From Magnolia sinica (Eukaryota; Streptophyta; Magnoliopsida; Magnoliales; Magnoliaceae): a stretch of DNA of 64,000 bases. This document shows, piece by piece, positions 4,474 to 61,105 of the stretch; position 1 is the stretch's first letter; every line of letters starts with the position of its first letter. The stretch lies in NCBI RefSeq assembly GCF_029962835.1, contig NC_080583.1:70293158-70357157 (forward strand), read 5' to 3'. The position numbers were made by a program, and so were the translations under genes. The notes under the pieces are model-generated. The model searched no databases and was not told the DNA's origin. It saw nothing but the letters and a program-made list of their open reading frames with translations.

Positions 4474-7400
4474 TGTAACGCCCTCATAATTGGGGGTCGT
4501 GCATAAACTCGACTCTCAAGTTCCGGGGTACAACTTTTAACCGATTTTTACTAATTTGCGTTTAATTAAGTTTAGATGCGCAGTATGAAATTTCTTAAAA
4601 CATGAAACACAACCACAACTAGTCTACCGAAATGAAAGAGGCCAAATATATACAAGTCCAAAATAATATGAATGGGTCGCACAAGGTGTTGCCCAACAAA
4701 ATCATAAAAAAATATATCTAAAAGAATGATGAGCTGAGTCCAACACCTAGCGATCCGAATCTGTCTATTAGGGTGGTGGAGAACCTCCCATCAGCTGGAA
4801 GTAGGACAACTTGTCCTCCTCATCAAGACTCGCGCCACCAGGCTCCTCGTACCCTGCGTCACCTGCAACTACGAGAGAGTCTAGTTGGTGTTTTAAAACA
4901 CCATCCCAGAGTGGGAGTGAGTGATCAACTCAGTGGGTTCTATTAATCTTAAGTTACATCAGGAATCAATTATATTATGAATTTAATGAAAGACAAACAT
5001 TAATAAATCCTTAGCTAATCTTGTTAATAAATAAGCATGATAAATGATATGATGCATGACCTCACCAAAACACACTCTTGAGCGATTCCATCTAATGATC
5101 ACACATCTCGAGTATTCCCTCATTGCGACCTTAACTACTGAGTCGCCAAATCTTAGCTAATGCAATGCATGAATAATGTTAACCGAGTATTTAGTTAGTT
5201 CCGTTCATCTAGTAGATTGGAAAAACTGGTACACCCCATGTATCAATACCCTCAACTAGTTGCGAGGCTAAGGCCCCTCAACGTGCGAGGCCATGACCCT
5301 GCAATCCTTGATCCCATCGGGTTCCCCGTCCCCGACTTCAAGCACATGGGGAGTGCTGAGAAAATGGATCGTTCGCGGTCACTACGGGGACGTTCATCAC
5401 CCCAGCGTAGGCCGACAGTTCGGATACAGTGTCCCATTCCACCATGCCCGACTCACGAGTCGTGGATCGGTTTCAATTTGGTTATCAATGGGTTGCAACG
5501 ATTGAAGGGTGCTCCAGGTTCCATACATACGTGAGTAGACATGGTTAACAAACAAGGTTGGTTAGTAAGTAGACTAAACTGCACGAGTTCAGGTGAGTAC
5601 GTGACAGACAACATCGGGTACAAGTAACCCATTTAGTCTAACTACTGTCGCCCATACTCACCCACCACAAATTCACAGGTTTTACCTCAGGATAGTCCTA
5701 CCAATGGGACCACCGTTTCTCTCCTCGGATTCCTGACCAACCCAAGGGTTTGATAGTATTCAATAACATTTCAACAATCAGGGTTATCAACTAACATAAT
5801 CAGTTTCATGCATTCATATTTTCCAAACCAAATTACAGATTCCTATAAAGCAAATGCTAACAATATTATGAAATAAAGGTGCATGTGTTGTGTGGGTTAG
5901 TGAGGAAGGCAAGCATTTCATATATCTCCTAATACCAAAATATACACAAGGGTTAATACATCAAACATGTTATGGGGAAACATTAAACAAGAATCGAGCA
6001 AAGATTGTACAAACAATCATCAATTGCATACCTAATCATGTTAAGGAACATCAAACATTTTATCACCATTCCATGTTGATTTGAGGATGATTTAAAGTGT
6101 AAGGTCTTATTTAGGTTTCTTTAGATTACCCAAATACATCATCCAACAAGTAAAATCATTAGATTCCTATTAAAATTGGTTCTAGGCCACCTAAGAACAA
6201 TAGTCTGCACCGATGAGTCGTTGAGAGTTCTATGAAATGATCTAGGGTTGCCAAGCTCACGGATGGATTGGTAGAGATCCTGAGTCAAATGAACTTTGCA
6301 TGTTATGGTTACATGCAAATCCTAGCTCAACACAAAAGATTACAAAAAGATGGGTGCTTACCTCCCCAATTGGTTAGAAATGGAGCTTGGAGTTGTGGAT
6401 GTGGGAGAAAGGAAGGAGATTTGTTAAGGTTCCAAGTTTCCTTGGCTCCTCCACCAACAACACCCTCCTTCACTCTCTTCTTCATCTCTTCCTTCTCATT
6501 TTTCTTTCCTCTCTCCCTTTGTTCCACCTAGGAAAAATTCGTATGGGGAGAGGGGGTGCCCAAATAGGGCCTTTATATAGTGCCAGATTTGGTGTAAATG
6601 GCCCTAAGGGATGGGTTTTTACTATACTAGCCCTAGGAGATTATTTTTTTACCATTTGGGGGCCACTACGGGGAGTATGAGTCAACACCCACCATTGGAT
6701 AGTGGGCCCTAATGATGATCTACGTATAGATATGATCGGCCTGCCATTTGGATGCGCCGATCGACAGATATGATTAGAAGTCTGTTCAATAGTCACCAAT
6801 GGTCGATCGGGACCACGGCTATACGGATATGAGTAGGGAAATATCCTTACACCACGTGTGAAGTTTGGTCATAAACTGACGGGCCGAAATCCTCAACTTT
6901 GCGTAAGAGTGGACGACCCAATTCACTTAAGTTTCAGCTTCTTCCCTTAGGGTATTTGCACTTCTCATGCACTCGTCCTTTGGCTCAAGTTGAGCAGTTC
7001 TGGACAGTACCCAGGTCTGACTCTCGCAATAGACGTCAAGCCCAGTAAGATGGACATTATTCTATAGTTTTGGTACTAGCGGCCCACTAACAAGCGGTCT
7101 AGAACTTGCTCGAAAAATCGAGGCATTTCTGTAATGAATTTGGTAGTGAGATTTCTCGTAGGCAGTGATTAGGTTTTGGATTAGCTATGTTCATAGTGTG
7201 GCCTATTTATAACTAGTGAAAGTGGAGATTTGGTCATGATTACTCTAAATTATCGGTTTTAGGAAAAAAGAATAGCGGGGTTCATTTAATCTATTAGTTA
7301 AGATTCGATCCTTATCTGACTCGGCTTCAGTTAGATCTTTAATTTAGTTATTCTTGTCTTGATTAGTTAGTAATGGGTCGGTTAGATTTGGGCCCTATGT

Positions 7401-11146: not shown

Positions 11147-11868
11147 TGTAATGCCCAGAAAATTGGGGGTCATGCATACACTCGACTCTCCAAGTTCTCG
11201 GGTATCACTTATAACTATTTTACTAATTTGCGTTTAACCAAGTTTAGATGCACAATATGGAATTTCTTGAAACATGAAGTACAACCACAACTAGTCAACT
11301 AAAATGAAAGAGGCCAAATATATACAAGTCCAAAATAATATGAATGGGTCGCACAAGGTGTTGCCTAACAAAATCATAAAAAATATGTCCAAAGGAATGA
11401 TGAGCTGAGTCCAACACCTAGCAATCCAAATCCATCTACTAAGCCGGTGGAGAACTGCCCATCAGCTAGAAGTAGGACAGCTTGTCCTCCTCATCACGAC
11501 TCGCGCCGTCAGGCTCCTCGTACTCTGTATCACTAGCAACTACGGGAGAGTCTGGTTGGTGTTTTAAAACACTGTCCCATAGTGGAAGTGAGTGATTAAC
11601 TCAGTGGGTGCTATTAATCTTAAGTTACATCAGGTATCAATTATATTATGAATTTAATGAAAGACAAACATTCATAAATCCTTAGCTAATCTTATTAATG
11701 CATAAGCATAATAAATGATATGATGCATGACCTCGCTACAACACTCCCTCGAGCGACTCCATCTAACAATCGCACATGACCAGCACTCCTTCATTGCGAC
11801 CTCAAATGCTAAGTTACCAAATCCTAGCTAATGCAATGCGTGAATAATGTTAACCGAGTATTTAGTTA
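11147..11868 (-). repeat. 5' LTR (element orientation) of the LARD-like element, first segment
   Basis: It begins TGTAATGCCC and matches 4474-5200. It ends at the TTA target duplication of the CACTA insertion and resumes at 26602. Confidence 0.85.
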
Positions 11869-11884
11869 CACTACCAAAAAATCG

Positions 11885-11995
11885 AGCAAAGGCTATGGAG
11901 AGTGGAAGCTTTTAGCTACGGATTTAATCCGTAGTAATATAGCTACGGATTTAAGCCATAGCTATAGCCTAAGTTTTCTGTCGCTAAAGCTACTC
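11885..11995. repeat. Left subterminal palindromic repeats of the CACTA element
   Basis: Copies of GCTACGG...CCGTAG(C) occur at about 11932-11980, directly inside the left terminus. In CACTA elements such subterminal repeats are the transposase (TNPA-like) binding sites. That role here is inferred from the family. Confidence 0.7.
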
Positions 11996-11999
11996 CCCA

Positions 12000-12892
12000 C
12001 CTAAAATATATTAAATATATATTAAATATAAATGGTGCTCTAGGGGATCCATGAGGTCCACTTGAATATATGAGTTTGATCTAAGCCGTCCAAAAATTCT
12101 GATATATAATTTTAGTGTATGAGCCCAAAAATTATGTAGTTTAAATCTCTAAGTGGACCATACCATAAGAAATAATAGAAATTAAATTTATACTGTTAAT
12201 ATATTGTGTGGTCTCCTTATAGATTCGATCTAACTCATTTTTTTTTATCAACACTTATAATAATAATTTAAAATTAATGGACGGAGTGGATATATGAAAT
12301 ACATCACAGTGGGCCCCACGGTCCTAAAAACATAAAACGTCCAGGAGCCGTCCGTCACGCGCCCCTCCAAAACCTCAAAATCCCTTCAAAACCCAAAACG
12401 CCCGTCCGCCATTTTCTCCCGCTCGCCCGACGAACCCATCTCTCTATCTCTTTCTCGCACTCAATCTCTCTCTCTTTCCTTTGCCCTCTCTCGATCTCCC
12501 GATCTCCCTCACCCTCTCTCCCTATCTCAAGGCCGCATTCTCCTCTCTATTTTCAAAAACCCATTTTGCTGTAAGAAGGAGAAGAAGAAGGAGAAGGAGA
12601 AGAAGACGGAGCACGGTTAGTTTCTTTCTTTCTCCCTCTTTATCTCTTTCTCAAAACTTTCAATCCTTCAATCCGCATTCCCCTCTCCTTGTTTCTGAAA
12701 TCTAAGGGCCCAATTGGCCAGTCGGATTGGAAGGGATTGGATGTTGTTGGAAGGGATTGGAAGTTAAATCCTGGGATTGGCCGGGCGTGCCAAACAGATT
12801 CAACCACCCATATTGGCCATTTTGGGCATTTCAGATACAGGCCAACCTCGCATGGAACGCCCACCATTAGGGCCTGTGGTGATTGAACGCCC
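12000..12892. other. CACTA left arm with CT-rich, 5'-UTR-like tract
   Basis: The block is shared with the second CACTA copy (about 45300-46060). It includes a conserved segment with GATATATAATTTTAGTG and a CT-rich tract of the sort found in 5' leaders (12405-12700). A GAAGAAG-rich stretch lies at 12572-12610. No coding frame is convincing. Confidence 0.5.
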
Positions 12893-13112
12893 ACCATTAG
12901 GGCCTGTTTGGCCAGGCAGATTGGATGGAATTGGATGGTATTAGAGTGGATTGCACAGATTTCTAGGTAATGATAGTTGCGTCAGTGGATTGGTGCAAGA
13001 TCTATGGGATTGCTATATCCTGGGATTGCTATTTCCGGTCTATTTGGGATGCCCGGCCAATACCGGGATTAAACCTTCAAATCCCTTTTAATCCCTTGAA
13101 CCAAACACGTCC
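12893..13112. mobile_element. Possible small MITE inside the CACTA element
   Basis: The ends GGGCCTGTTTGG and CCAAACACGTCCC form imperfect inverted repeats about 220 bp apart. I found no clear target duplication, so the call rests on the ends only. A direct duplication of GAACGCCCACCATTAGGGCC (about 12857 and 12884) precedes it. Confidence 0.35.
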
Positions 13113-13223
13113 CAAGCAATTTTGAAGGGATTAGGGGTGGATTGGATGGGATTTAAAGGTAATGATGGTGATGTCAGTGGATTGTCTTAAGATCCTGAAA
13201 TGAATTCCAGAATTTTTTTTTTT

Positions 13224-13533
13224 TGGGTTTGTCAGATTGTGACGTCAATTTGAATTTCTATATTTTTTTTTCAATGTCTTTTATGTTACTGGCACAGGCA
13301 TTCATATACATTGAAAAATATGATTGAAGTGCTAGACTAGCATGTGCATTTACACCATTTTTTAAATGTTGGTGACTCATCCACCACACGTGTCATAAAA
13401 CATGTTAATCCACTGCATTGCATTCATCAGGAATCAAGCAGTGGTATGGAGCTACTGAGATGCATCTGACTTTATTGCACACTACTGCAATGGTTGGTCA
13501 TAGTGTTTGCAAACATCAACTAACTTTCATTCA

Positions 13534-13598
<65 letters not shown>

Positions 13599-13872
13599 AT
13601 CTTGAAGAGAATTTCAGAAAATTTGTTGGTTTGTCAGTTTGCGAGATCAATTTGAATATCTTTTAATTTGGTATAATGTCTGTTATGTTACTGGAACGAG
13701 CATTCATTTACATTCAGAAATGTGATTGAAGGGCTAGACTAAGTCACTAAGATGTGCATTTCCACCATTTCTTAAATGGTGGTGTTTCATCCACCAAACA
13801 TGTGCCATAACACATGTTAATTCACCTCACTGCATTTTTCAGGTATCAAGTAGTGGCATGAAGCTACTAAGA
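13224..13872. repeat. Diverged direct duplication of about 245 bp, with a CA/TA microsatellite between copies
   Basis: 13224-13466 and 13624-13872 share GTTTGTCAG..., ATGATTGAAG..GCTAGACTA, ATCCACCA and the ATCAAGCAGTGG/ATCAAGTAGTGG segments in the same order. A (CA)n(TA)n tract at about 13535-13593 lies between them. Confidence 0.65.
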
Positions 13873-14991
13873 TGTGCATTGCCATAACACATGTTAATTC
13901 CATAACCTTTGCTCCATTTTTTGGTAGTGTAAATTTTCATGAAGTTCTCAAGACCATTCCTTGAGAACAATATTGCATTGTGATATATGTGGCTTTATTA
14001 TCAGCTTATGATTCGGAATATTTCAGGTGCCCGGATTGTAATGTGAGGTATTTGTTTTTTGGCAGCCATTGGATTTAGGCCTCACAAACTGTAAATAAAT
14101 ATAGAATTTTGGCTCTCAAGTTTACAGTCCCTGTCTACGGTGTTTTTATGTGAGATGGAAATGAGAAATGGGTCCTGGGAGTTCCATGAAATTTGCGAAG
14201 TGTTTGAATCAAATTAACTGTGGGTACAAAACAAAAACTTTGGCTGCAACTATACTTTCTAGCTCATTTAACAGGTTTAGGGCCTGTTGGATGTCCCATG
14301 TAACCATTTTGGGATTGAAGGATATCTAAAAAAGTAATGGCCGAAGATTTGTTTCCCCACTTCTATCAGTTTGGAGCAAAGAACTATTGAAAATGTTGCT
14401 TATTTAGATTCAGAATTTTTTGCATGACAGATGAGCATCTGTTCTGCCTCAGATAGTCAGTTTGGAAGATGACCAAATGTGCCCTTAATTTCTTAAGTTT
14501 AGGATATGATAGTATGAGAACTCATGTACTTTCCTCAGCATTTGGCCGATATTATTGGAGGAAATTCTCGATATCTGCTGCGCACTGCAGTTCCTGGCTG
14601 ATTGATGTATTTACTACTGTTCATGTTGCATTGCCATCTTTCATTTTTGTGCTTCTTTTCCTTTTTAATAAATTGTGGGGTATCCATAAACAAGGAACTT
14701 TCACACTGTCATCCACACTTTAGTTACTTGGTTTGTTGTCTGCATGGAAGTTTTTTTTTTTTTTTTAACCGTTTAATTTCTAGCAAGAGGTGCTTGACTT
14801 TCAGGTCCATGTATATAAACCTCTTTGTATTCCTACTCCTTTTTAACTCTAATAAATGTGGTTGGTGTCATGTATTTGTATTTTTATTTTGACTATTGTT
14901 AGAAAATGCTTAATAAATGTTTGATCATTTTCTGCATTTTCAAGTTTAATTTCTGCTTGAATTTCTTGGTTATGAGAATCCCATCTTGCAG

Positions 14992-15601
14992 GCTTTATGG
15001 TCTTGATGTACATCTTTGAGACATATCTGGATATACGGCAACATGCATCTCTAAAGCTGCCAATTCTTCCTAAACCTTTGGTTGGAGTGGTCAGTCAAGA
15101 AAAAGTTGAGAATTCTCAAGCATTTAGTCTTGATAAAAGGTTTGTTTTTATCCATTGAGGATCATTCTGCATCCCATGTGTATGCGCTTGTGATTCAAAA
15201 ATCTGCTTTAAACATGTTGTCGATCCATTTCAGCGGTTGAATTAGTTTACAGCTTCATCAGTCTTCTTATTACATGAAATTAAATTGGTTATATAGATTG
15301 GAATCTCTGGCTGGCTGAGACTAACTTCTTTGAGGTTTATATATTTTAGCAACTTCCACTTTATTCATGGGGCTGTAACCATACTAATGGATACCACAAT
15401 TTTGTTCTTTGGTGTGCTGCCATGGTTTTGGAAGGTGAGTCAAGAGAATTGTGTCACTGTTGTTCTTTTGGCAGAAATTCATTTGCTGTGCTTTTTGGGC
15501 TGCAGAGATCTGGAGACTTTCTGGTGCACATGGGCCTTAATTCAGAGAATGAAATACTTCACACCCTTGCATTCTTAGGAGGTGTTATGATTTGGTCACA
15601 G
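14992..15601 (+). pseudogene. STE24: Captured STE24 (CAAX prenyl protease 1) exons
   Basis: Three exon-like segments encode an N-terminal piece of plant STE24, the membrane zinc metalloprotease that trims prenylated CAAX proteins in the ER. The segments are 14992-15139 (GFMVLMYIFETYLDIRQHAS, then LPKPLVGVVSQEKVENS), 15350-15434 (NFHFIHGAVTILMDTTILFF, then GVLPWFWK) and 15506-15601 (SGDFLVHMGLNSENEILHTL, then AFLGGVMIWSQ). Acceptor AG and donor GT bases are present at every junction, and the phases fit (Gly and Ser codons split correctly), with no stop codon in about 109 codons. The first exon and everything after the third, including the HExxH zinc site, are absent. It is therefore a transduplicated fragment and cannot be an active protease. 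It could still be spliced into a transposon transcript. Confidence 0.85.
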
Positions 15602-16078
15602 GTGTGATATAAAATCTTCCAATGGTTCTCAAATATTTAAATTGCACTTCATTTTCAAAAAATTGACTATAGTTTTCATGTCTCGTAGTACCCTTTTTCT
15701 TGTATTTGGTGTGGAAACTTGAATTTCATTCATGTAACCATCATGTGATGAGATATCTCTTTTTTTTTTTCCTCACTGAGTTTGTGAAGTTGAGAAATCT
15801 TCTCCTGTAATTTTTTTCCTTTTTCTAATGTGGACATATAAAACAGTACATGGATATCCATATCCAACTTCACTAGTTAAATAGATTGATTGTATGTCCA
15901 ACACAGTACATATTGTTATTTATTGTCATTAATATATGCGGGATTGCATGTACATGCTAAAGTCAGCAAGGAAGTTCATGCAAGGTCGAAGTCGTTTAGC
16001 AGGTGGCCCATTGCCCCAGCTTGTATGTGTCTTGGCCAAAAAATTAGGATAGTTATGATGTTGCCTATATTGTGTAGT

Positions 16079-16079
16079 G

Positions 16080-16122
<43 letters not shown>
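16079..16122. repeat. (GT)n microsatellite
   Basis: An uninterrupted run of about 20 GT dinucleotides lies inside the intron-like part of the CACTA element. Confidence 0.9.
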
Positions 16123-17115
16123 GACCACCAAAAATATTTATTCGAATTGCATCCAAGCAGTTAATTAAGAGGGGAGAAGAACTAGTCAACTATTGAATTA
16201 AAAAGATCCTCCATTCCTTGAACTGCCAATCTTCAAAGAGTATTCATCATCATCATAATAGCCTGGTCCCAACTATTTGGTCTGGCTTTATGAATCCTGT
16301 TATGCCAATCATTTGAAATTGGAATTCCCATGATTGCTTGGAAACTGTATGAAAACTGGCATCCATCTAACTTCAGCTTTCTTTTATCTGGGCTGGGGTC
16401 CAGAAAATTAGATACATGCCTATAAATAAGCGAGCCCATTCTTTCTGGTCGCTTGGCAAGGGCATGACTACTGGCTGTCTGCCTGAAATTAGACCTCTTT
16501 TATCTGGTCTGGGAACAGTGAAAATAGATACATGTGCAGAAATATGCAATTTTTTTTGAAGGGTAATAAATATGCAATTCTTCTGGAGATTTTGGAGATT
16601 CTCATGATTAGGGGAGATCCATATTTCTTGAGAAGCATCAGTTTCTAATGAGCAGACGACCTTTTGATCACACTATTAATAGATGCCTTTGTCCTTGAAG
16701 GTTAAAATTATGTGTCATTAACAGATGTATTTATGCTAAAAGGATAAAATTATGCTTGCAAGGAATCTTTTATGCGATGACTTACCTGATGAGTGGATTT
16801 TTAACTCAATGGCCAAATGTATGGCTGTGGTGCTAAATAGTCCCATATGTTTAAATAGTGGCCAAAGGGACTGTTGCATTAACAATTTTCCACGAGAAAA
16901 CAGAGATTTTCAACTAGAATAGAAGACAACAACACATCCTAAACTGTTAAAGAAGTTCTTCATGCCACACATGAAAATTTTGGTGCTTGATATAGGGAAA
17001 AGATATAATCGGTCCATTTATTTGCAAAATGATTTATTATGGGCACAATCACTAAGAAGCTGGTAGATAGTTATATTTGTTGCTTTTCTCAATGATGTCC
17101 ATTAAAATGCTGCAG

Positions 17116-17224
17116 GTTTCTCATCTGTTCACTGAATGGTGTCAAATTTGTGAACTTCCTGGTATGAATGATGCATCTTATGCCCATTACATTTCATAAT
17201 TGCAACAAAGTGGGCTACTTAAAG
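17116..17224 (+). pseudogene. NOT1: Captured exon of NOT1 (CCR4-NOT scaffold)
   Basis: After an acceptor (TGCAG) the sequence encodes VSHLFTEWCQICELPGMNDA, then SYAHYIS, a stop, and LQQSGLLK, ending before a GT donor. This matches my recollection of a conserved region of plant NOT1/CNOT1, the scaffold of the CCR4-NOT mRNA deadenylation complex. A TAA replaces a Gln codon (CAA) in the middle. Only this 109-base exon is recognisable, and the surrounding sequence looks like introns. It lies about 1.5 kb after the STE24 pieces, in the same orientation, inside the same transposon. Confidence 0.7.
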
Positions 17225-17793
17225 GTTTTCTTTGTTATGTGGTCATGACTTGTTTGTTTCTTCTCTCACTACGATTAAACTGGTTATATCTGATATTGTT
17301 GAGCTTGACTTCTTTCAAGGAGTGTTAATTCAGACCCAATTAGGTAGACTATTGCAAAAGCACGTCATAGAGGAAAGTTTAGACCAAATATATTGAGTTT
17401 AAGAGAACCATTGAGAAAATTAACATCTTCCCTTGATGCTAGTGGATATTAACAACAGGAAAATGCCACTTTCAACTACCCTTGTGACATTACTGTTCAA
17501 ATTTGGCCTACTTTACATTTAAAAAGGAAGTAAGATTAGACATACCCATCTTCTAAACTAGAAACTTTTCCTCAGTTCCTGAGATTTAAGGCTCTCTTGA
17601 ATATAAATTGTTGTTGATGGGTTCTTTCTTGCTATCAGTTTTGTTGGTCTGTAAGGAAAACCTTGGAAGCATACAATGGAAGGTAAGGAAAACCCTCGAG
17701 GTCCCTTCTTTGAATCATGAAAAGGTATTTGTGCTCTTTTCATTGAGTGGGTAGTTGATTACTCAAGCATGACGGTTATGCGTATTCTTTCAG

Positions 17794-17847
17794 GTGGATG
17801 TTGCATGTGGAAAGATTGGAGCTGCATATTTCAGATTCAAGCATCTG
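17794..17847 (+). pseudogene. Short exon-like fragment, origin unknown
   Basis: A 54-base open segment is bounded by TTTCAG and GTACGT splice consensus. It encodes either VDVACGKIGAAYFRFKHL or, in another frame, WMLHVERLELHISDSSIW. I do not recognise either reading. It may be a further captured exon. Confidence 0.35.
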
Positions 17848-18099
17848 GTACGTCTCTTGTCAAGAATGCACATGTGTAGTTCATTAAACAGTACATTATG
17901 TGATATCGTGTGCATGATATCTATGTTGTAATTTTCCTCATGTATTTTGCTTAAAATCCATGTTTATGCATGATTCTCATGCATTGACATGGATTTGAGC
18001 TAAAAAAGATCGAAATGGAAAATTTGAGAAAACAGGGGAGATTTTCTTTTATAAAGTAAGTATTTGGGACCAAGTGGTTACGTATTTGCTCCATTAAAT

Positions 18100-18432
18100 T
18101 TGCTCGAAATTAATGGAGCAGACCCGGATGTGCGTCGGAGCTATCCGGATGAGCGGGGGTCCCTGGAAGGTGGGAACCGCTGTTATGACCATGATGAAGC
18201 TGTCCATTTTCTATGGACAGCATTGGAGGGGCCTGACCATTTAGACAGGCCGTGTTTATATATTTGATCGAAATTAATGGAGCAGACCCGGATGTGCGTC
18301 GGAGCTATTCGGAAGAGCGGGGTTCCCTGGAAAGAGGGAACCGCTATTATGACCATGATGAAGCTGTCCATTTTTTATGGACAGCATTGGAAGGGCCTGG
18401 CATTTGTGTCGGATGGCCGTGTTTATATCTGT
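18100..18432 (+). repeat. Tandem duplication (about 165-bp unit) bordering the telomere-like array
   Basis: The unit beginning near CGAAATTAATGGAGCAGACC occurs at about 18104 and 18269. It continues through GATGTGCGTCGGAGCTAT and AAGCTGTCCATTTT to GGCCGTGTTTATAT. The copies differ at a few percent of positions. The second copy runs into the CCTAAA array after a short TTTGCTTTGCAGGGACC segment. Confidence 0.85.
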
Positions 18433-18448
18433 GTTTGCTTTGCAGGGA

Positions 18449-21400
18449 CCATACCCTTAACCTAAACCAAAACCTATGACCTAAAACCTTAACCTATAAC
18501 CTAAACCTCAACCTTAACCTAAACCTAAACCTTAACCTAAATATATAACCTTAACCTAAAACCTAAAACCTAAACCTAAACCTTAACCTATTCTCAATTC
18601 CCTAAACCTATATCTTATAACCTAAACGTAAACCTAAACCTTAACCTATACCTATAACCTTAACCTAAACCAAAACCTATGACTTAAAACCTTAACCTAT
18701 AACCTAAACCTCAACATTAACTTAAACCTAAACCTCAACCTAAACATATAACCTTAACCTAAAACCTAAAACCTAAACCTAAACCTAAACCTATAACCTA
18801 AATGTATTCTCAATTCTCTAAACTTAAACCTACACCTAATCCTAATCTTAACTCCCTAACCTAAACCTATACCTAAACTTGAAAACCCAAACATAAACCC
18901 GATCCCGAACCCAAACCCGATATCCTAAACCTAAACCTTAACCTATTCTCAATTCCCTAAACCTATATCTTATAATCTAAACTTAATCAAATCCCAAAAC
19001 CTAAACCTTAACTTATACCTATAACCTATAACCTAAACCAAAACCCATGACCTAAAACCTTAACCTATAACCTAAACCTCAACCTTAACTTAAACCTAAA
19101 CCTTAACCTAAACATATAACCTTAACCTAAAACCTAAAACCTAAACCTAAACCTATAACCTAAATGTATTCTCAATTCTCTAAACTTAAACCTACACCTA
19201 ATCCTAATCTTAACTCCCTAACCTAAACCTATACCTAAACTTGAAAACCTAAACATAAACTCGATCCCGAACCCAAACCCAATATCCTAAACCTAAACCT
19301 TAACCTATACTCAATTCCCTAAAACTATATCTTATAACCTAAACTTAATCAAATTCCAAAACCTAAACCTTAACTTATACCTATAACCTATAACCTAAAC
19401 CAACACCCATGACCTAAAACCTTAACCTATAACCTAAACCTCAACCTTAACTTAAACCTAAACCTATAACCTAAACTCAATTCCCTAAACCTAAACCTAG
19501 ACCTAATCCTAAACCTATAGCCTAAACTCAAATCCCTAAACCTTAACCTATAACCTAACCTAAACCTATACTTATAACCTAAAACTATTCCCAAATCCCA
19601 AAACCTATTACCTAAACTTATTCTCAAATCCCAAAACCTATTACCTAAACCCATTCTCAAATCCAAAACCTATAACCTAAACCTGAACCCATTATCAAAT
19701 CCCAAAACCTATAACCTAAACCAAAACCTAAACCTAAACCTAAACCCAAAACCTAAACCTAAACCTGAACCTATAACCTAAACTCAATTCCCTAAACCTA
19801 AACCTACATCTAATCCTAAACCTACAGCCTAAACTCAAATCCCTAAACCTTAACCTATAACCTAACGTAAACCAATACTTATAACCTAAAACTATTCCCA
19901 AATCCCAAAACCTATTACCTAAACCCATTCTCAAATCCAAAACCTATAACCTAAACCTGAACCCATTATCAAATCCCAAAACCTATAACCTAAACCAAAA
20001 CCAAAACCTATAACCTAAACCCGAACCCATTCTCAAATCCTCAAAACCCAAACCGACACCTAAACCTAACCCTAAACCTAAACCTATAACCTAAACTCAA
20101 TTCCCTAAACCTCAACCTAGACCTAATCCTAAACCTATAACCTAAACTCAAATCCCAAAACCTTAACCTATAACCTAACCTAAACCTATACTTATAACCT
20201 AAAACTATTCCCAAATCCCAAAACCTATTACCTAAACCTAAACCTAAACCTAAACCTATAACCTAAACTCAATTCCCTAAACCTAAACCTACACCTAATC
20301 CTAAACCTATAGCCTAAACTCAAATCCCTAAACCTTAACCTATAACCTAACGTAAACCAATTACTTATAACCTAAAACTATTCCCAAATCCCAAAACCTA
20401 TTACCTAAACCCATTCTCAAATCCAAAACCTATAACCTAAACCTGAACCCATTATCAAATCCCAAAACCTATAACCTAAACCAAAACCAAAACCTATAAC
20501 CTAAACCCTAACCCATTCTTAAATCCCAAAACCCAAACCGAAACCTAAACATAAACCTAAACCTAAAACCTAAACTCAATTCCCTAAACCTCAACCTAGA
20601 CCTAATCCTAAACATATAGCCTAAACTCAAATCCCTAAACCTCAACCTAAACCTAAACCTAAACCTATAACCTAAAATCAATTCCCTAAACCTCAACCTA
20701 GACCTAATCCTAAACCTATAACCAAAACCCAAGCCGACACCTAAACCTAAACCTAAACCTATAACCTAACCTCAACATAGACCTAAACTTAAACCTATAG
20801 CCTAATCTCAAATCACTAAACCTTAACCTAGACAAAGACCTAAACCTAAACTTATAGCCTAAACTCAATTCAATAAACCTCAACCTAAACCTAAACCTAA
20901 ACCTAAACCTATAACCTAAACTCAATTCCCTAAACCTCAACCTAGACCTAATCCTAAACCTAAACCTAAACTCAAATCCCTAAACCTTAACCTATAACCT
21001 AACCTAAACCTATAACTAAAACCCAAACCGACACCTAAACCTAAACCTAAACCTAAACCTATAACCTAACCTCAACCTACACCTAAACTTAAACCTATAG
21101 CCTAAACTCAAATCCCTAAACCTTAACCTAGACCTAGACCTAAACCTAAACCTATAGCCTAAACTCAATTCCCTAAACCTCAACCTAGACCTAATCCTAA
21201 ACCTAAACCTAAACTCAATTCCCTAAACCTTAACCTATAACCTAACCTCAACCTACACCTAAACTTAAACCTATAGCCTAAACTCAAATCCCTAAACCTT
21301 AACCTAGACCTAGACCTAAACCTAAACCTATAGCCTAAACTCAATTCCCTAAACCTCAACCTACACCTAAACTTAAACCTATAGCCTAAACTCAAATCCC

Positions 21401-24400
21401 TAAACCTTAACCTAGACCTAGATCTAAACCTAAACCTATAGCCTAAACTCAATTCCCTAAACCTCAACCTAAACCTAAACCTAAACCAATAGCCTAAACT
21501 CAATTCCCTAAACCTCAACCTAAACCTAAACCTAAACCTATAACCTAAACTCAATTCCCTAAACCTCAACCTAGACCTAATCATAAACCTAAACCTAAAC
21601 TCAAATCCCTAAACCTTAACCTATAACCTAACCTAAACCTATAACCAAAACCCAAACCGACACCTAAACCTAAACCTAAACCTAAACCTATAACCTAACC
21701 TCAACCTAGACCTAAACTTAAACCTATAGCCTAAACTCAATTCCCTAAACCTCAACCTAGACCTAGACCTAAACCTAAACCTATAGCCTAAACTCAATTC
21801 CCTAAACCTCAACCTAGACCTAATCCTAAACCTAAACCTAAACTCAAATCCCTAAACCTTAACCGATAACCTAACCTCAACCTACACCTAAACTTAAACC
21901 TATAGCCTAAACTCAAATCCCTAAACCTTAACCTAGACCTAGACCTAAACCTAAACCTATAGCCTAAACTCAATTCCCTAACCTCAACCTACACCTAAAC
22001 TTAAACCTACAGCCTAAACTCAAATCCCTAAACCTTAACCTAGACCTAGATCTAAACCTAAACCTATAGCCTAAACTCAATTCCCTAAACCTCAACCTAA
22101 ACCTAAACCTAAACCTATAGCCTAAACTCAATTCCCTAAACCGCAACCTAAACCTAAACATAAACCTATAACCTAAACTCAATTCCCTAAACCTCAACCT
22201 AGACCTAATCATAAACCTAAACCTAAACTCAAATCCCTAAACCTTAACCTATAACCTAACCTAAACCTATAACCAAAACCCAAACCGACACCTAAACCTA
22301 AACCTAAACCTAAACCTATAACCTAACCTCAACCTAGACCTAAACTTAAACCTATAGCCTAAACTCAAATCCCTAAACCTCAACCTAGACCTAGACCTAA
22401 ACCTAAACCTATAGCCTAAACTCAATTCCCTAAACCTCAACCTAGACCTAATCCTAAACCTAAACCTAAACTCAAATCCCTAAACCTTAACCTATAACCT
22501 AACCTCAACCTACACCTAAACTTAAACCTATAGCCTAAACTCAAATCCCTAAACCTTAACCTAGACCTAAACCTAAACTTAAACCCATAGCCTAAACTCA
22601 ATTCGCTAAACCTCAACCTAAACCTAAACCTAAACCTAAACTTATAACCTAAACTCAATTCCCTAAACCTCAACCTAGACCTAATCCTAAACCTAAACCT
22701 AAACTCAAATCCCTAAACCTTAACCTATAACCTAACTAAACCTATAACCAAAACCCAAACCGACACCTAAACCTAAACCTAAACCTAAACCTATAACCTA
22801 ACCTCAACCTACACCTAAACTTAAACCTATAGCCTAAACTCAAATCCCTAAACCTTAACCTAGACCTAGACCTAAACCTAAACCTATAGCCTAAACTCAA
22901 TTCCCTAAACCTCAACCTAGACCTAATCCTAAACCTAAACCTAAACTCAAACCCCTAAACCTTAACCTATAACCTAACCTCAACCTACACCTAAACTTAA
23001 ACCTATAGCCTAAACTCAAATCCCTAAACCTTAACCTAGACCTAGACCTAAACCTAAACCTATAGCCTAAACTCAATTCCCTAAACCTAAACCTAAACCT
23101 AAACCTAAACTTATAACCTAAACTCAATTCCCTAAACCTCAACCTAGACCTAATCATAAACCTAAACCTAAACTCAAATCCCTAAACCTTAACCTATAAC
23201 CTAACCTAAACCTATAACCAAAACCCAAACCGACACCTAAACCTAAACCTATAACCTAACCTCAACCTAGACCTAAACTGAAACCTATAGCCTAAACTCA
23301 AATCCCTAAACCTTAACCTAGACCTAGACCTAAACCTAAACCTATAGCCTAAACTGAATTCCCTAAACCTCAACCTAGACCTAATCCTAAACCTAAACCT
23401 AAACTCAAATCCCTAAACCTTAACCTATAACCTAACCTCAACCTACACCTAAACTTAAACCTATAGCCTAAACTCAAATCCCTAAACCTTAACCTAGACC
23501 TAGACCTAAACCTAAACCTATAGCCTAAACTCAATTCCCTAAACCTCAACCTAAACCTAAACCTAAACCTATAACCTAAACTCAATTCCCTAAACTTTAA
23601 CCTAGACCTAATCCTAAACCTAAACCTAAACTCAAATCCCTAAACCTTAACCTATAACCTAACCTAAACCTATAACCCAAAACCCAAACCGACACCTAAA
23701 CCTAAACCTAAACCTAAACCTATAACCTAACCTCAACCTACACCTAAACTTAAACCTATAGCCTAAACTCAAATCCCTAAACCTTAACCTAGACCTAGAC
23801 CTAAACCTAAACCTATAGCCTAAACTCAATTCCCTAAACCTCAACCTAGACCTAATCCTAAACCTAAACCTAAACTCAAATCCCTAAACCTTAACCTATA
23901 ACCTAACCTAAACCTATAACCAAAACCCAAACCGACACCTAAACCTAAACCTAAACCTAAACCTATAACCTAACCTCAACCTACACCTAAACTTAAACCT
24001 ATATCCTAAACTCAAATCCCTAAACCTTAACCTAGACCTAGACCTAAACCTAAACCTATAGCCTAAACTCAATTCCCTAAACCTCAACCTAAACCTAAAC
24101 CTAAACCTATAACCTAAACTCAATTCCCTAAACCTCAACCTAGACCTAATCCTAAACCTATAACCAAAACCCAAACCGACACCTAAACCTAAACCTAAAC
24201 CTAAACCTATAACCTAACCTCAACCTACACCTAAACTTAAACCTATAGCCTAAACTCAAATCCCTAAACCTTAACCGCTAACCTAGACCTAAACCTAAAC
24301 CTATAGCCTAAACTCAATTCCCTAAACCTCAACCTAAACCTAAACCTAAACCTATAACCTAAACTCAATTCCCTAAACCTCAACCTAGACTTAATCCTAA

Positions 24401-25737
24401 ACCTAAACCTAAACTCAAATCCCTAAACCTTAACCTATAACCTAACCTAAACCTATAACCAAAACCCAAACCGACACCTAAACCTAAACCTAAACCTAAA
24501 CCTATAACTTAAACTCAATTCCCTAAACCTCAACCTAGACCTAATCCTAAACCTATAACCTAAACTCAAATCCCAAAACCTTAACCTATAACCTAACCTA
24601 AACCTATACTTATAACCTAAAACTATTCCCAAATCCCAAAACCTATTACCTAAACCTAACTTCTCCCTAAACCTATAACCTAAACTCAATTCCCTAAACC
24701 TAAACCTACACCTAATCCTAATCTCAACTCCCTAACCTAAACCTAAACCTTAACTTGAAAACCCAAACTTAAACCCAATCCCGAACCTAAACCCGATTTC
24801 CTAAACCTAAACCATAACCCGTTCTCAAATCCAAAAACCTATAACATAAACCTAAACCAAAACCAAAACTTATAACCTAAACCCGAACCCATTCTCAAAT
24901 TCCAAAACCTATAACATAAACTCGAACCCATTCTCAAATCCCAAAACCCAAACATAAACATAAACCTAAACATAAAACCTAAACCTAAACCTATAACTTA
25001 AACTCAAATCCCTAAACCTAAACCTAATCCTATAACCTAAACTGAAATCCCTAAACCTTAACCTATAACCCAACATAAACCTATACTTATAACCTAAAAC
25101 TATTCCCAAATCCCAAAACCTATTACCTAAACCTATAACCTAAACTCAATTCCGTAAACCTCAACCTAGACCTAAACCTAAACCTAAACCTATAGCCTAA
25201 ATTCAAATCCCTAAACCTTAACCTATAACCTAACCTAAACCTATACTTATAACCTAAAACTATTCTCAAATCCCAAAACCTATTACCTAAACCTAACCTT
25301 TCCCTAAACCATAACCCATTCTCAATTCCCTAAAGCTATAACCTATAACCTAAACCTAAACCTAAACATAAACCTAACCTAAACTTATAACCTTTCCTAA
25401 AACCTTTAACTTAAACCTAAACTTAAAACCTAAATGTATTCTCAAATTCTTAAAACCAAACCTACACCTAATCCTAATCTCAACTCCCTAGCCTAAACCT
25501 AAACTTGAAAGCCCAAACCTAAACCTGATCCCGAACTCAAACCCGATTTCCTAAACCTAAACCTTAACCTGTAATCAAGTTCCCAAAAGCTAAACCTATA
25601 ACCTAAACCTTAACCTAAACCTAAACCAAAATCTATAACCTAAACCTTAACCTATAACCTAAACTTAATTATAACCTATAGCCTAACCTTAACCTAAACC
25701 TATAACCTAAACCTAAACCAAACCTAAACCTATAATC
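18449..25737. repeat. Telomere-like CCTAAA-type array with higher-order repeats (7.3 kb)
   Basis: The plus strand is composed almost entirely of CCTAAAC, CCTATAAC, CCTTAAC, CCTCAAC and CCTAGAC hexamer/heptamer variants. Canonical plant telomere units (CCCTAAA) are interspersed, mostly as TTCCCTAAACC and ATCCCTAAACC. G is nearly absent from the plus strand. The edges (18449-20000 and 24600-25737) are more degenerate than the core. In the core a marker ACCGACACC recurs at about 20052, 20732 (variant), 21027, 21656, 22284, 22759, 23229, 23688, 23931, 24175 and 24470, which defines higher-order units. It lies inside a transposon, so it is not a chromosome end. The minus-strand open frames rich in Arg-Phe are translations of the repeat and are not genes. 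Confidence 0.95.
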
Positions 25738-26155
25738 ATATGGTGAGACCATTTCTTTTGTGTCAATTTCATTCCTCTTTGAGTTTTTTTTAATTCATTA
25801 AGAAAAAAAAGTGGTTATACGTGATGCACTTCTTTTACTGTCTTTCTTTTCTCTAATGGGCATTCTAATTTATGAATGACATGACTGTTTGTAGGATAAT
25901 GGAATATACGAAGCTGCTGAAATTTGGTGAAGTCGAGCACATTTCTCTAATGAAGCCAAAGATTTGTATTTTCAGCATTATTGTATTTGTAACTGTAATT
26001 GATTGTAATTGTAATTAATTGAATGAAGGATTGTAATTGTAATTGAATGAATGAAGGATTGTAATTGTAATTGAATGAATGAATGATTGTACAGGTGGTA
26101 ATTGAATGAACAGGTGGTAATTGAATGAACAGGTGATTTAATTTTTCAATGTACA
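25738..26155. other. CACTA right arm with TGTAATTG/GAATGAATG repeats
   Basis: After the array there is an exon-like scrap (TTTGTAG, then DNGIYEAAEIW and a stop, 25892-25930). A run of TTGTAATTGTAATTGAATGAA-type short repeats follows at about 25985-26130. I recognise no gene. Confidence 0.5.
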
Positions 26156-26580
26156 AAATAGCTACGGATACTGATCGTAGCCACTAGTCAGACAGGTGTA
26201 GCCTTTTTAATTTTGGCATATTGCTACGGACTTTCAGCTACAAATAATATCCGTAGCTGTTTGAAGTTTTTGCTACAAATATAATTGCTATGGATTATAT
26301 CTGTAGCTATTTAACATACAGCTACGGATTAAATCCATAGCCATTAATCAGATAGGTATAGCCTTTTAAATTTTGGCCTATTGCTACGGACTTTCAGCTA
26401 CAAAAAATATCTATAGCTGTTTATTTTTTTTGCTACAGGGGAAAAGGCTACGGATTTAATCCGTAGCCATAGTGGCTACGGATTAAATCCGTAGCCATCG
26501 GTTCCAGCATGTTACGGACTAGCTACGGACTTAATCCGTAGCCTTAGGTCTATGGCTACGGATTAAATCTGTAGCCTTTA
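26156..26580. repeat. Right subterminal palindromic repeats of the CACTA element
   Basis: At least eight copies of GCTACGGA...CCGTAGC palindromes occur at about 26160, 26222, 26285, 26321, 26382, 26446, 26470, 26521 and 26554, the densest close to the terminus. They are presumed transposase-binding sites, by analogy with known CACTA elements. Confidence 0.75.
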
Positions 26581-26601
26581 CCCATTTTTTTGGTAGTGTT
26601 A

Positions 26602-43989: not shown

Positions 43990-45180
43990 ATGGAAGAGTG
44001 GGAACATCAGTATGCTGAAATAGCTAAGAGATATTGGGAAGGGATGTATGATTATTATAATAGGAAACAACCTATGTCTCAAAAATTTTCTGAAAATATC
44101 ATTGAGAACCAACCAATATATGATGCTCCATTGGTTAAGAAGTCCTTCGGTGATTATAGTCGGGAGATAATTGCACTTCACGGATTAAGAAAACAGTACT
44201 TGATTATGGGGTCATTGTGATTATTGGAATGAGGATAATTATCAACCATCCAACAGGAAAAGAACTATGTGTGAATGTATTATGGTTGATAATATGTATC
44301 AACAACCACCAGACTCTCCCACCTATGACCCATATGATTATGAATAGTGGAAACGGAGATATTTGAAAGATGAAATAGCAACACATCATAGTGATTATTC
44401 TCTTGGATCCCCTACCTTTAAAATCCAACCAGAAACGATCCAAGAAGATTCAGTTCAGAAACTCATGAATGCATAAGAGCAATTCAATCAATATCTCTTG
44501 CAATCATTCGTAGACATTGAAAAATCTATCGAATTGATTAAATCAACTAGGTTAGAATGTCAGTCACACCTCAATGAGGGGGAAGAGGCTAGTTTATCCC
44601 AACCTCAACCTAATCCAGAAACACAAGGCGAGAAAAGTGATCCTAACTCGCTTGTAGAGGGTACTGAAATTGAGAATGAAGAGTTGGATTGTGTTAATGA
44701 GCATATGGTTCAATTTCCCGAGAATCGATCTCGATGACTGTCTGAAGGAATGATCAAGAGATGTGGGTGTCTTTCAAATATAATGATACTGACACATTTC
44801 ACTCACATCACACACTTGGTTTTAATGAGGAGGAAGAGCTAGTTTATTCGAGCCTCATCCCAATCTAGAAACAGAATGTGAGGAAAACGATCCCACTCCA
44901 CTTGTGCACTGCACTAAATTGGAAGATGATGAGTATTGAGTGATAATCATGAATGTACAGCCCAGATTTCCCTGGAATCGATCTCAAGTTTGGTCTAGGT
45001 CAATGATTAAGAAGTACAGGAAGTTTTCAACCATAATGAACCACTCCACCCATCTGACATGTCTGATTTAAATGTGGAGGATGAGCCCCTTTCAACCGAC
45101 CCTTCCAACTCTTATGAGGTGTGTTTAGACCACTCCGCTGAATTAAATGATGATATGATTCGAGAGATGGATGAGTTATC
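43990..45180 (+). pseudogene. Gag-like ORF remnant of the tRNA-Asp-primed element
   Basis: It starts at ACCATGG (43990) with MEEWEHQYAEIAKRYWEGMY, a Tyr/Gln-rich protein. Near 44200 a frameshift moves the reading to HCDYWNEDNYQPSNRKRTMC, then MYQQPPDSPTYDPYDYE and a stop. A third segment (44465-44737) reads EQFNQYLLQSFVDIEKSIEL, then a Pro/Gln/Glu-rich tract. The style resembles the gag-like proteins of non-autonomous Tat/Athila-related elements, but I see no zinc knuckle or pol domain. Decayed sequence continues to 45180, where CACTA sequence begins. The function is inferred from position, just after the primer site and leader, and is not certain. Confidence 0.5.
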
Positions 45181-45647
45181 ACTACCAAAAAATTGAACAA
45201 AGGCTACGTACTTTGGAAGTTTTTGGCTATGGATATAAACCGTAGTAGGTTTGCTACAAATTTACTCCATAGTTAAAACCTACATCCTCACCAGGATCTT
45301 ATTAGAGATTGATGGTGCTTAAGGGGCTCCATGGGGCCCATTGGAATGTATGTGTTTTATCTAAGCCATCCATAAATTCTGATATATAATTTTAGTGGAT
45401 GAGCCCAAAAAGTAGGTAGATTGAAGGTCTAAGTGGACCACACCATAAGAAATAATAAAAAATAAATTTCTATCGTTAATATGTTGTGTGGTCCACATAC
45501 AGCTTTGATCTGACTCTTGTTTTTGTATCAACCCTTAAAATGATTCGTTAAAATGAATGCACGGGGTGGATAAATAACATACATAAGCAAAGTGTCGTCC
45601 ATCACACCCTAAAACCCAATCCTACATGCACCATCTCTAAAAACAAA

Positions 45648-45767
45648 TCTCTCCCTCTCTCTCTCTCTCTATCTCTCTCTCAAAACCCAATCCCGCGTGC
45701 GCCCATCTCCCCAAATCCAAAAGCCTCTCCCTTTCCCTTGCCCTCTCTCTATTTCCCACTCTCCCTC

Positions 45768-45815
<48 letters not shown>

Positions 45816-45960
45816 CCTCTCGCACTCACCCTTTCCCTCTCCCTCTCTCGATCTCCCTCGTTTCCTCACCCTCTCTCGATCTCCCGCGTTCCCTCATCTT
45901 TTGGCCCCATTCCCCTCTCTTTATCTCCCGACCTCTCTCTCTCTCTAGGGTTTTCAAAAC
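45648..45960. repeat. (CT)n-rich tract
   Basis: Long CTCTCTCT runs (a pure run at about 45770-45813) mixed with CCCTCTC produce long open frames of Ser/Leu/Pro on one strand and Arg/Glu on the other. These are not genes. Confidence 0.9.
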
Positions 45961-46302
45961 CCTCTTTCGTCGCAAACCCACCATTGATCGGTGAGCAGAC
46001 CCTGTGCCAAGGTTTTCCAAACCCCTTTCATGCAACCCTTGTCACCATCTCAGCTCATCCACCAGTGAGAGTGAGAGAGAGAGACTTGGAGAGCACTTGA
46101 AAGAAGGAGAAGAAGAAGAATGAAGAAGGTCCAAATATCATTTGCCTTTATACATTTGCTATTTATTTCCTAATACATTTGCCTCTATAATTGTATAACT
46201 TTCTGCCTAATAGTTGTGTTCATCCATGTTATTCGACATAATAATTTCTTTGGATATAATTTTTAGGGTGCTGAACTAGCTTCTTTTTTTGTGTTAAACT
46301 AG

Positions 46303-58659: not shown

Positions 58660-61105
58660 TCACTTCTCTAACTTGATTGCTTCAATGAAATCGTTGAAAT
58701 TCTTAAACGAAGATCCTCCTTCGGCAACATTCTTTCGGGCAGTCTGCTTGAGCTCTAAAGATCTCGCTCTTATACCCTCATCACCAAGCAATTCATCCAG
58801 CTTTCCCTTAATCTCTTCTCTTGGTATGATCCCACTGGAATCGTGTTTCAGGTGCAACCCAACCTTCCAAACATCAGAAATGTATATTTGGTTTTGGAGC
58901 TGGTCACCAAAGTAAGGCCAGCACAAGAAAGGAACTCCATTACTCATCCCCTCCATGGTCGAGTTCCACCCGCAATGAGTCAAGAAGCAGGAAATCGAAG
59001 GGTGGGCCAGCACCTTTTGTTGAGGTGACCATCCAACAATTCGCCCACGACCCGCGACTCTAGCTTCAAAGCCATCTGGGTAGGCATCCGATGGTCCGTC
59101 GGTGAGGTCTGGCCGCACTACCCATAGGAATGAACGGTTGGAAAGTTCGAGTCCAAGTGCCAGTTCGTGGAATTGACGTCGGTTGAAGATAGTAAAGCTG
59201 CCAAAGGCAATGTAGACTACTGAGCGGGGAGGCTGTTCGTCAAGCCAGCTTAGGCAAGTGGGGTCTTCAGGCCAGAAGTTCCCTTCGAGCCGCCCAAGCC
59301 GTCTTCCTGCTAGAAGAGGGCCGATGAGCCGGATGTTTGGAACCAACTCACAGGCGGATGGCTCAATCTCGTAGAATGAGTTGCAAAGAAGCCAGTTGGC
59401 CAATTTTGCAGCTTGGGTGCATTCGTGTAAGTATCGGAAGAGGGACCGTTGCGCGTCACGGTCACCGACGAAGAGCCACACTAGCTGAGTGGTGTTGAAC
59501 TGTGGCATGGTTGGGGAGAGTTTGATCATTTGCTGTGTTGTTGGAAATCCTGCGAAATATTCAATCACGGTTAGGATCTATTACATATATAGAGATTTTA
59601 TTTTCCAGGGTATTTGTACAAGTGGGGCCCTCCATCATGGCTACCATGTCAGGCATAGTTCCCATAGTTGGATGTCAAGCATGCAAGGAATCTGGACCAT
59701 TCATCACGTGGTATAAAATATAAGCATAGCATATTAGAGAAATCAGGGCAGTAAACTCATCAACAGCAGCACACATAGATTTAAGTGAGCCACGTATGTA
59801 CACTTAATTTAGTTATTGAAACCAAACAAACAAACACACACACACACAAAAACAAACAAACAAACGCTGAATTTGGATAATTGGACTTTTAGTTGTTAAC
59901 ACGTAAAATATTAAAAACAATCAAAGTAATCAAAGTGTTCACTAGCCACTTGATTTTTATAGAGAAAAACCAATTTACATGCCAAAAGTGACATTCTCTA
60001 GGAGTAATGTCAGGTTATTTTTTTGAAAAAGATAATTCATATATAAACAGTGCTCAACAGCCAGCGTATACATTCTGGCCAGCCCTAGCAAGAAATAAAG
60101 CTACGGCCCACCTATCATACCCCGAACAAATAACACCCCCAAACACTAAATGAGGCCCTGGCCTCACTGATGCTCCACCTGACATAGGAACAACTTCTTT
60201 TTCTTTTTTTTCTTTTTTCTTTTTTTCTTTCAAAAGGAATCGTAACCCCCACAATAGCTAAAACCCACCAACAAACCAAAAAAAAAATAACAAAACACTT
60301 TCCTTGAGATCTCGTTAGTCAAATTGAGTTGACTCAGTTGAGCTGAGTTGAGTTATCAAAGTTTAGAATTATATTTCAACCTACTCGGGCTTTAATATAT
60401 TGCTACTCATCAGACGGTTTTGGACCACTGAGGGCTGATGCATATGTATCATTTATGAACAAATCTGGTCTACACCGTGCGGCCCATAATTTAAACCTTG
60501 TTATTAATTGCATAAATAGAAAACCAGCAAGATAATTTTTATTTTCAGCACTCGAGCAAGCTTGAAAATCTTAAACAAAGTGAATTTCGAAATGACTTGC
60601 CTAGTTTCTATACTATGGTCTTACCGTCCGTGTCGATGATTCCGTCCTCGATCAGCTTCGGAATGTGAAACAGTAAGGCACAAAGGCTCACTGTCACAGT
60701 CCAAACCGCAGCTGCACGGATCCCCATCTTCACAGCAACTTCCACTGCCCATCCCATGGTCCCGTCTGCAATGATGCATGAGATCTTATCATGATCAGAC
60801 TCATTGATCTTACGAATCAGCGCTTCTAAACCATGGGGCATGACACGTAAAATACTCGCACATTGCTTGCCCAAGTCATTCCGGTCTTCACCTGGTGCCA
60901 TCCCATCTGGAATTGAAACCAGACGGATCTGCTCCTGCACTCTGCCCATCTTCGGCAGTGCGGCCACTACGCGGGCGTGATTGAACTCAGTATTCACGAA
61001 TGTGATCTTGAACCCATGATCCATCAAGCAATGAGAGAGCTCCATGAAGGGTATGACATGACCTTGCGCCGGGTATGGCACGACTAGGGCGTGCGGCTTT
61101 TCCAT
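58660..61105 (-). CDS. UDP-glycosyltransferase, UGT83A1-like, two exons
   Basis: It encodes a family-1 plant glycosyltransferase that transfers a sugar from a UDP-sugar to a small acceptor in the cytosol. Exon 1 is 61105-60625 and exon 2 is 59549-58660; a 1075-bp GT-AG phase-1 intron splits a Gly codon. The product is 456 aa, normal for the family. The start is the ATG at 61105 (GTCATGG context, MEKPHALVVPYPAQGHV). The catalytic His is about residue 16 (AQGHV) and the partner Asp about 114 (IIADG). The 44-residue PSPG sugar-donor box runs from about 334 (WSPQQKVLAHPS) through THCGWNST to GDQ at 377 with all signature residues. EDRNDLGK, GWAVEVAVKMGIR and the ending NFNDFIEAIKLEK fit UGT83A. 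Rice UGT83A1 acts on flavonoids and monolignols; the acceptor here cannot be deduced. There are no stops or frameshifts. It is the only apparently functional host gene here. Confidence 0.93.
59550..60624 (-). other. Intron of the UGT83A-like gene
   Basis: On the minus strand the donor is GTAAGA and the acceptor TTTCGCAG. It contains a CAAACAAACACACA tract (59827-59865) and a polypyrimidine run, TTCTTTTTTCTTTTT (60198-60232, plus strand). No coding or RNA feature is recognised. Confidence 0.85.

Follow-up and report, generated by a model that had tools for sequence, protein, structure and literature searches.

A non-autonomous CACTA element of Magnolia sinica carrying captured gene pieces and a CCTAAA-type minisatellite array

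Pack-CACTA elements have reportedly been described by Catoni et al. in 2019. Plant interstitial telomeric repeats (ITS) carry CCTAAA words on an A/C-rich strand, true ITS being tandems of the telomere unit. A review of Pack-CACTA elements has proposed a hybrid origin from closely spaced neighboring CACTA insertions (PMC13317346), and a Jozin-type CACTA element of 16.5 kb in Chenopodium quinoa has been described with a 5.55-kb tandem array near its 3' end (PMC8978399); by this latter account, satellite arrays and gene fragments are already known from CACTA elements. In the literature covered here—mostly titles and openings of abstracts—we found no description of a telomere-like array inside a CACTA element. 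Here we analyze a window (the whole 64,000-nucleotide stretch, bases 70,293,158–70,357,157 of contig C11 in the 1.84-Gb, 127-contig genome of Magnolia sinica) that holds a non-autonomous CACTA element of 14,730 bp at window positions 11869–26598, in which captured host-gene pieces and a CCTAAA-type minisatellite array lie side by side (Table 1). Very probably this is a non-autonomous Pack-CACTA element of hybrid origin, moved in trans by an En/Spm-type transposase, with the array as a regular component of the family.

Array-bearing copies across the genome

The element opens with CACTACCAAAAAA at 11869 and closes with the reverse complement of CACTACCAAAAAA at 26598. Its terminal inverted repeats start with CACTA and both ends carry subterminal repeated motifs, the features by which the CACTA superfamily is recognized; at the right end these are eight copies of a 25-nt palindrome (GGCTACGGATTWAATCCGTAGCC) within 26160–26578, with two related copies at the left end. 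Joined at a single TTA, the flanks align with window 5073–5322, an uninterrupted paralogous copy of the insertion-site repeat. These observations bear out the CACTA termini, TTA duplication, and subterminal palindromes of an earlier reading made from the DNA letters alone (hereafter the original prediction). The family left-end sequence is CACTACCAAAAAAATGAGTAAAGGCTAC, the left module contains an internal direct repeat (~280 bp, 77% alike, spaced ~410 bp), and no transposase-like open reading frame (ORF) of at least 110 amino acids was seen by eye in the element.

Ten further 20-kb regions were examined, i.e., the nine other full-length matches to the captured STE24 gene piece and one left-end locus without STE24. 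Both CACTA ends were present in seven of these ten regions and in the window, and all eight such copies carry the array; for C18, C6, and C4b, neither the right end of the window-element family nor the array was found within the 20 kb examined. The eight complete STE24 copies span 11,016–17,772 bp, with arrays of 5,214–10,161 bp. The right array border is common to all eight and the left border to seven, a deletion in copy C5 having removed the left border along with the NOT1 part. Exact 3-bp target duplications, a further CACTA hallmark, flank seven of the eight (TTA, GTT, GGT, GTA, TAA, ATT, ATT), and the internal inverted CACTA end is kept in every one (8/8). The array belongs to the mobile unit and moves with the element, just as the original prediction had proposed in counting a 7.3-kb CCTAAA-type array as half of a mobile unit. 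The left parts of the STE24 copies diverge by 1.1–2.8%, which would correspond to ~1.4–3.5 million years if the rate is taken as per site. As the STE24-flank piece has 34 matches genome-wide, the STE24 version represents a small sub-lineage.

The original prediction called such a unit unusual; the element is no lone oddity. Genome-wide, the right array border occurs at 498 places (control 2; ≤2 mismatches), the left array border at 1,894 (control 0; ≤3 mismatches), and an array 32-mer at 1,603 (control 0; 0 mismatches); the patterns that follow use positions from the first 100 places listed for each. All 11 right-end matches on C1–C5 (from the best 40 of 1,690 candidates) have an exact right array border 430–935 bp away on the expected side, as do, within 10 kb, 12 of 16 32-mer clusters on C1. 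Among the borders on C1–C2, no same-strand pair was in reversed order (0 cases), and the 18 correctly ordered pairs span 2.95–18.2 kb with a median of 6.2 kb. The array was present at two loci with a left border only, which had been picked because no right border was listed for them. Judged by 32-mer matches, a single array locus of ~15 kb lies at C1:80.247–80.262 Mb.

A pattern search gave nine variant ends that represent the left end of abundant relatives, and the five with a correctly oriented right end at 11–17 kb were tested. All five are full-length elements (11.4–16.2 kb) with exact 3-bp duplications (ACG, TCA, CTT, AAT, GAT), although the TCA of copy C9a, whose right end has a changed base, was assigned by eye. 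None of the 34 STE24-flank matches falls in these five, which places them outside the STE24 lineage, and at all three junctions examined among them the array is joined directly to the right module. An array-bearing relative at C2:71.79 Mb (left end not in the sequence examined) has the same modules with different cargo to their left, namely a piece of glutamate dehydrogenase (GDH; PF00208, above cut-off) and one of NSF, for which the best PDB match is a vesicle-fusing ATPase (E 0.0046). Extrapolating from these few cases, cargo may be generally exchangeable within the family. An exportin-like exon at L054 was suspected by eye and is unconfirmed.

Captured cargo and its origin

The element holds exons of STE24 (CAAX prenyl protease 1) at 14992–15139, 15350–15434, and 15506–15601, each with AG..GT borders and together matching Pfam family PF16491 (E 3.3e-16). 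The predicted capture of STE24 is thereby supported, and host-gene exons inside a non-autonomous element are what defines a Pack-CACTA. A second captured gene had been named as NOT1. The exon itself is present with AG..GT borders and is putatively NOT1; the name found no backing in databases (0 Pfam families, no sensible PDB match). Further exon-like scraps had been proposed as well, and one such piece, at 17794–17847, likewise has AG..GT borders.

A 109-amino-acid NCBI protein of Magnolia sinica, "CAAX prenyl protease 1 homolog," has exactly the sequence that the captured exons encode (window 14992–15601). As the record ends just past the third-exon donor site, it probably represents the captured fragment rather than the gene—a caution for annotation. 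Across the eight copies, 6 of 329 sites vary in the STE24 exons versus 162 of 3,072 other sites (Fisher p 0.004). We do not claim selection on these exons, since all four exons taken together give p 0.31 and the exon split was chosen post hoc, after the translations. A tree of the copies was mostly weakly supported and was not used.

Two loci bear on the source of the cargo. The N-terminal half of STE24 protein (residues 9–216) matches C18:27,897,872–27,904,402 in successive pieces, which makes C18 the likely native gene. Window 13929–17342 matches C6 contiguously over 3.4 kb at 94.9%, including the joining of STE24 to NOT1, and this C6 copy is itself part of a 9,374-bp CACTA element, complete and from a different family, that has CACTACAAAAAATA and CACTACAACAAATA as its ends and AGA on either side (positions 1733–11106 of L035–L036, C6:9652003–9672002); a UAA-transporter exon lies downstream. 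The fusion is therefore carried by two CACTA families, and capture appears to have been layered, the STE24–NOT1 fusion having already been assembled in the other family before it reached this one; the order of events is our inference. The gene capture described in the original prediction holds for the exons, but was too simple as an account of how they arrived. At C18 and C6, homologous DNA continues unbroken exactly at 13930, reading GTCG and then, across that boundary, TAAATTTTC, where the window has the internal CACTA end. A further candidate parent for STE24, at C1:58.09 Mb, was ruled out, as only a partial exon and ~1 kb of homologous sequence lie there.

Table 1. Features of the window (positions in window coordinates).
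Feature	Position	Strand	Remarks
Paralogous empty site, repeat copy without element	4474..5625	+	
Target-site duplication TTA, left	11866..11868	.	Element-free paralogue has single TTA at ~5195–5197
Left CACTA module, ~2.06 kb	11869..13929	+	Terminal repeat, two subterminal motifs, CT-rich leader-like region, internal direct repeat, inverted CACTA end
Internal inverted terminal repeat	13899..13929	-	29/31 bases complementary to left end; TAA next
Captured STE24 (CAAX prenyl protease 1) genomic DNA including introns	13930..16207	+	PF16491; 95.3% over 2,173 bases to C18:27.897 Mb
NOT1-like exon (name presumed), 46 bp	17116..17161	+	AG..GT borders, in-frame joining; joined to STE24 DNA also at C6:9.656 Mb
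Further exon-like piece	17794..17847	+	AG..GT borders; also in copies without STE24 exons
164-bp unit repeated ~1.8 times, directly left of array	18095..18450	+	Also at five lineage-2 copies, L051, L052, L053
CCTAAA-type minisatellite array, 7,282 bp	18451..25732	+	
Right internal module	25733..26148	+	Starts ATAATCATATGGTGAGACC at array border
Right end: eight subterminal 25-nt palindromes and terminal repeat	26149..26598	+	
Target-site duplication TTA, right	26599..26601	.	TTA matches left flank
Second family member, left end	45180..45584	+	~75% similar

The second family member listed in Table 1 has no right end within the window (allowing ≤2 mismatches), and a CT-rich leader resembling that of the main element occurs there too (45180–46100). 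Elsewhere in the window, a short fold-back at 63709–63856 has GCTACGG..CCGTAGC arms like the subterminal palindromes and is possibly a miniature inverted-repeat transposable element, and two minus-strand ORFs at 58660–61123 resemble, by eye, parts of a glycosyltransferase (UGT) gene.

Nature of the array and rival readings

The array resembles telomeric DNA in composition only: it is a degenerate CCTAAA minisatellite. Over 18455–25732, its matches to its own repeat units are ~67–71%, and it shows a strong strand bias, with a GC skew of −0.85 to −0.92 in each kb from 19 to 25 kb. Across eight arrays (58 kb), no tandem CCCTAAA pair occurs (0), perfect hexamer tandems make up 9–19% of array length with a longest run of six units, and autocorrelation is best at lag 6 in all eight, with leading periods of 6, 51, and 57, plus 108 in several copies. 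Tandems of CCCTAAA give 980 matches genome-wide, and the 100 listed place them at the tips of C2, C3, C4, and C7 or close by; in addition, two short interstitial stretches occur, on C2 and C5. Lacking tandems of the species' own telomere unit, the array is not an ITS in the strict sense, and the absence of tandem CCCTAAA pairs, together with true CCCTAAA tandems at or near chromosome ends, rules out that it is canonical telomere. The proposal that such an element disperses interstitial telomeric repeats is thus right about the dispersal (498 and 1,894 borders) and loose about the material, as what is dispersed is a CCTAAA minisatellite and not the telomere repeat proper.

In the mechanism that we favor, an En/Spm-type transposase would work in trans, its substrates being the terminal repeats and the GGCTACGGATTWAATCCGTAGCC subterminal palindromes, and leave 3-bp duplications. 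The CCTAAA-type array occupies a place between fixed borders just inside the right end and is copied with the element, its length then being altered perhaps by unequal exchange or slippage; to its left is the host-gene cargo, which varies among relatives. To arrive at the window element, a short CACTA element (now 11869–13929) would have inserted at a TAA in DNA holding the STE24–NOT1 fusion; the short element's inner end would have been kept, and a single unit bounded by its outer left end and by a neighboring array-bearing element's right end would then have moved. The order would run from native gene to fused cargo in the other family, then to the 2-kb CACTA insertion at TAA, and last to mobilization of the hybrid. 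Retention of the internal inverted end in 8/8 copies, the unbroken C18 and C6 DNA at 13930, and the location of the C6 copy within a CACTA element with other ends support such a hybrid origin, and the sequence of steps fits the neighbor-hybrid model of Pack-CACTA formation as told in PMC13317346. The internal inverted CACTA end (13899–13929), seemingly a molecular trace of hybrid formation, was missing from the original prediction, as was the size of the family.

Several observations weigh against this account. In copy C19, which carries the array and both ends, the flanks read CTC/ATA and the right end is 9–12% off the others, so C19 may have recombined; more generally, the right ends, with their repeated motifs, diverge by 1.6–11.9%, more than the left parts and most of all in C19. 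The donor state, a short element with TAA on both sides in STE24–NOT1 DNA, was not found, no direct search having been made. For four of the 16 C1 array clusters, the 100 listed places include no exact right border. On C1–C2, only 18 of 49 exact right borders pair with an exact, correctly ordered left border no more than 25 kb away, which implies that many copies are diverged, cut, or built differently; two opposite-strand neighbors also occur among these borders. A 2,219-bp copy, C9, has both ends and a CTA/CTA duplication and carries neither genes nor array; it moved without the array, and so the array is unnecessary for transposition. No Transposase_21 partner could be tied to the family among the best 150 of 1,669 genome candidates scored, and none of the 39 Transposase_21 matches listed on C1–C5 has one of the 94 exact right borders within 30 kb. 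Finally, a second group of copies could have formed in another order. From a left-end search (best 40 of 1,089 candidates scored, 15 examined, a more distant group at ~83% left out), five of six further copies, here lineage 2, are without STE24 exons but share the left module with its internal inverted end and the first STE24-flank piece. In four of the five, the exon-like piece at 17794 directly follows the piece ending near 14452, whereas in C17 the match picks up again at 17837; all five have the array with the same left border (one changed base in three).

This direct joining without STE24 exons would be expected if the STE24–NOT1 block had been inserted late into an array-bearing, lineage-2-like element rather than lost from lineage 2. 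We judge that decidedly unlikely: lineage 2 keeps STE24-flank DNA (13930–14452) that is contiguous with the STE24 exons at C18 and C6, which makes loss simpler than late insertion. Hardly credible at all is the idea that the array is a separate satellite that entered a CACTA copy later, or an assembly artefact. Arrays are hard to assemble, and small contigs (C31, C37) hold two of the eight complete copies, yet the same borders recur in copies that differ in site and in target duplication, the right border is found 498 times with 3/3 junctions confirmed in the full-length relatives, and the assembly, in the available part of its published description, was built from Oxford Nanopore Technologies (ONT) reads with a contig N50 of ~45 Mb. 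Shared borders and target duplications rule out both versions, and the eight complete copies, checked for the array as a later insertion, gave no sign of one.

On how the array arose, we lean slightly toward amplification inside the element from a short A/C-rich seed, as for CACTA-linked satellites elsewhere, with the telomere resemblance due to chance. The fixed borders, the nested periods (51/57/108), and the differing array middles suggest as much, and a CACTA-derived satellite in Chenopodium provides a precedent (PMC7320549), although no array-free family member with the seed was found and the short C9 copy is without the whole region. The alternative that the array descends from true telomeric DNA (CCCTAAA), captured where a chromosome broke or ended and decayed since, seems unlikely. 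The CCTAAA unit is the telomere unit minus one base, CCCTAAA occurs 34–126 times per array, and lag 7 is among the better autocorrelation lags; but no CCCTAAA ever stands as a tandem pair in the eight arrays, hexamer tandems reach only 9–19% with runs of at most six units, and lag 6 is best throughout. A more ambitious idea, which we regard as very improbable, is that the array is a working module: CC-rich, strand-biased arrays would stall repair or replication during excision or gap filling and promote joining to neighboring DNA, such that the family repeatedly swaps its left cargo, even with that of other CACTA families, and keeps the array and right end.

Relation to described systems

The Pack-CACTA reading with a standing array module ties gene-fragment capture and satellite spread, usually studied apart, to one DNA transposon family at hundreds of loci. 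As a rough inference, the median span of 6.2 kb (from a selected set of 18 pairs) multiplied by 498–1,894 borders would give ~3–12 Mb of array in 1.84 Gb. It also offers a concrete route by which telomere-resembling arrays may enter chromosome interiors without telomerase.

With ITS, the magnolia array shares the A/C-rich strand and the CCTAAA words, while lacking their telomere-unit tandems. The Chenopodium tnp2-derived satellite DNA is alike in that CACTA sequence is tied to the birth of a satellite family; as described, however, it has a 40-bp monomer derived from transposase sequence, whereas no transposase origin was seen for the magnolia array, none having been tested for (PMC7320549). 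The Jozin-type elements come close, with related elements that hold gene fragments in their 5' part and a satellite spread along chromosomes. They are set apart by their description, in the available portion of which the monomer is 171 bp and not called telomere-like, the array elements hold Transposase_21 coding sequence, genes and array are not reported in one element, and four array elements are named as against hundreds of borders here (PMC8978399). Pack-CACTA elements are likewise CACTA elements with host sequence, and in the model put forward for them, as outlined in the review, the inner ends are lost by complementary deletions, whereas the magnolia element keeps the inner end of its left partner (PMC13317346). 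It differs from them further in that about half of the mobile unit is a tandem array.

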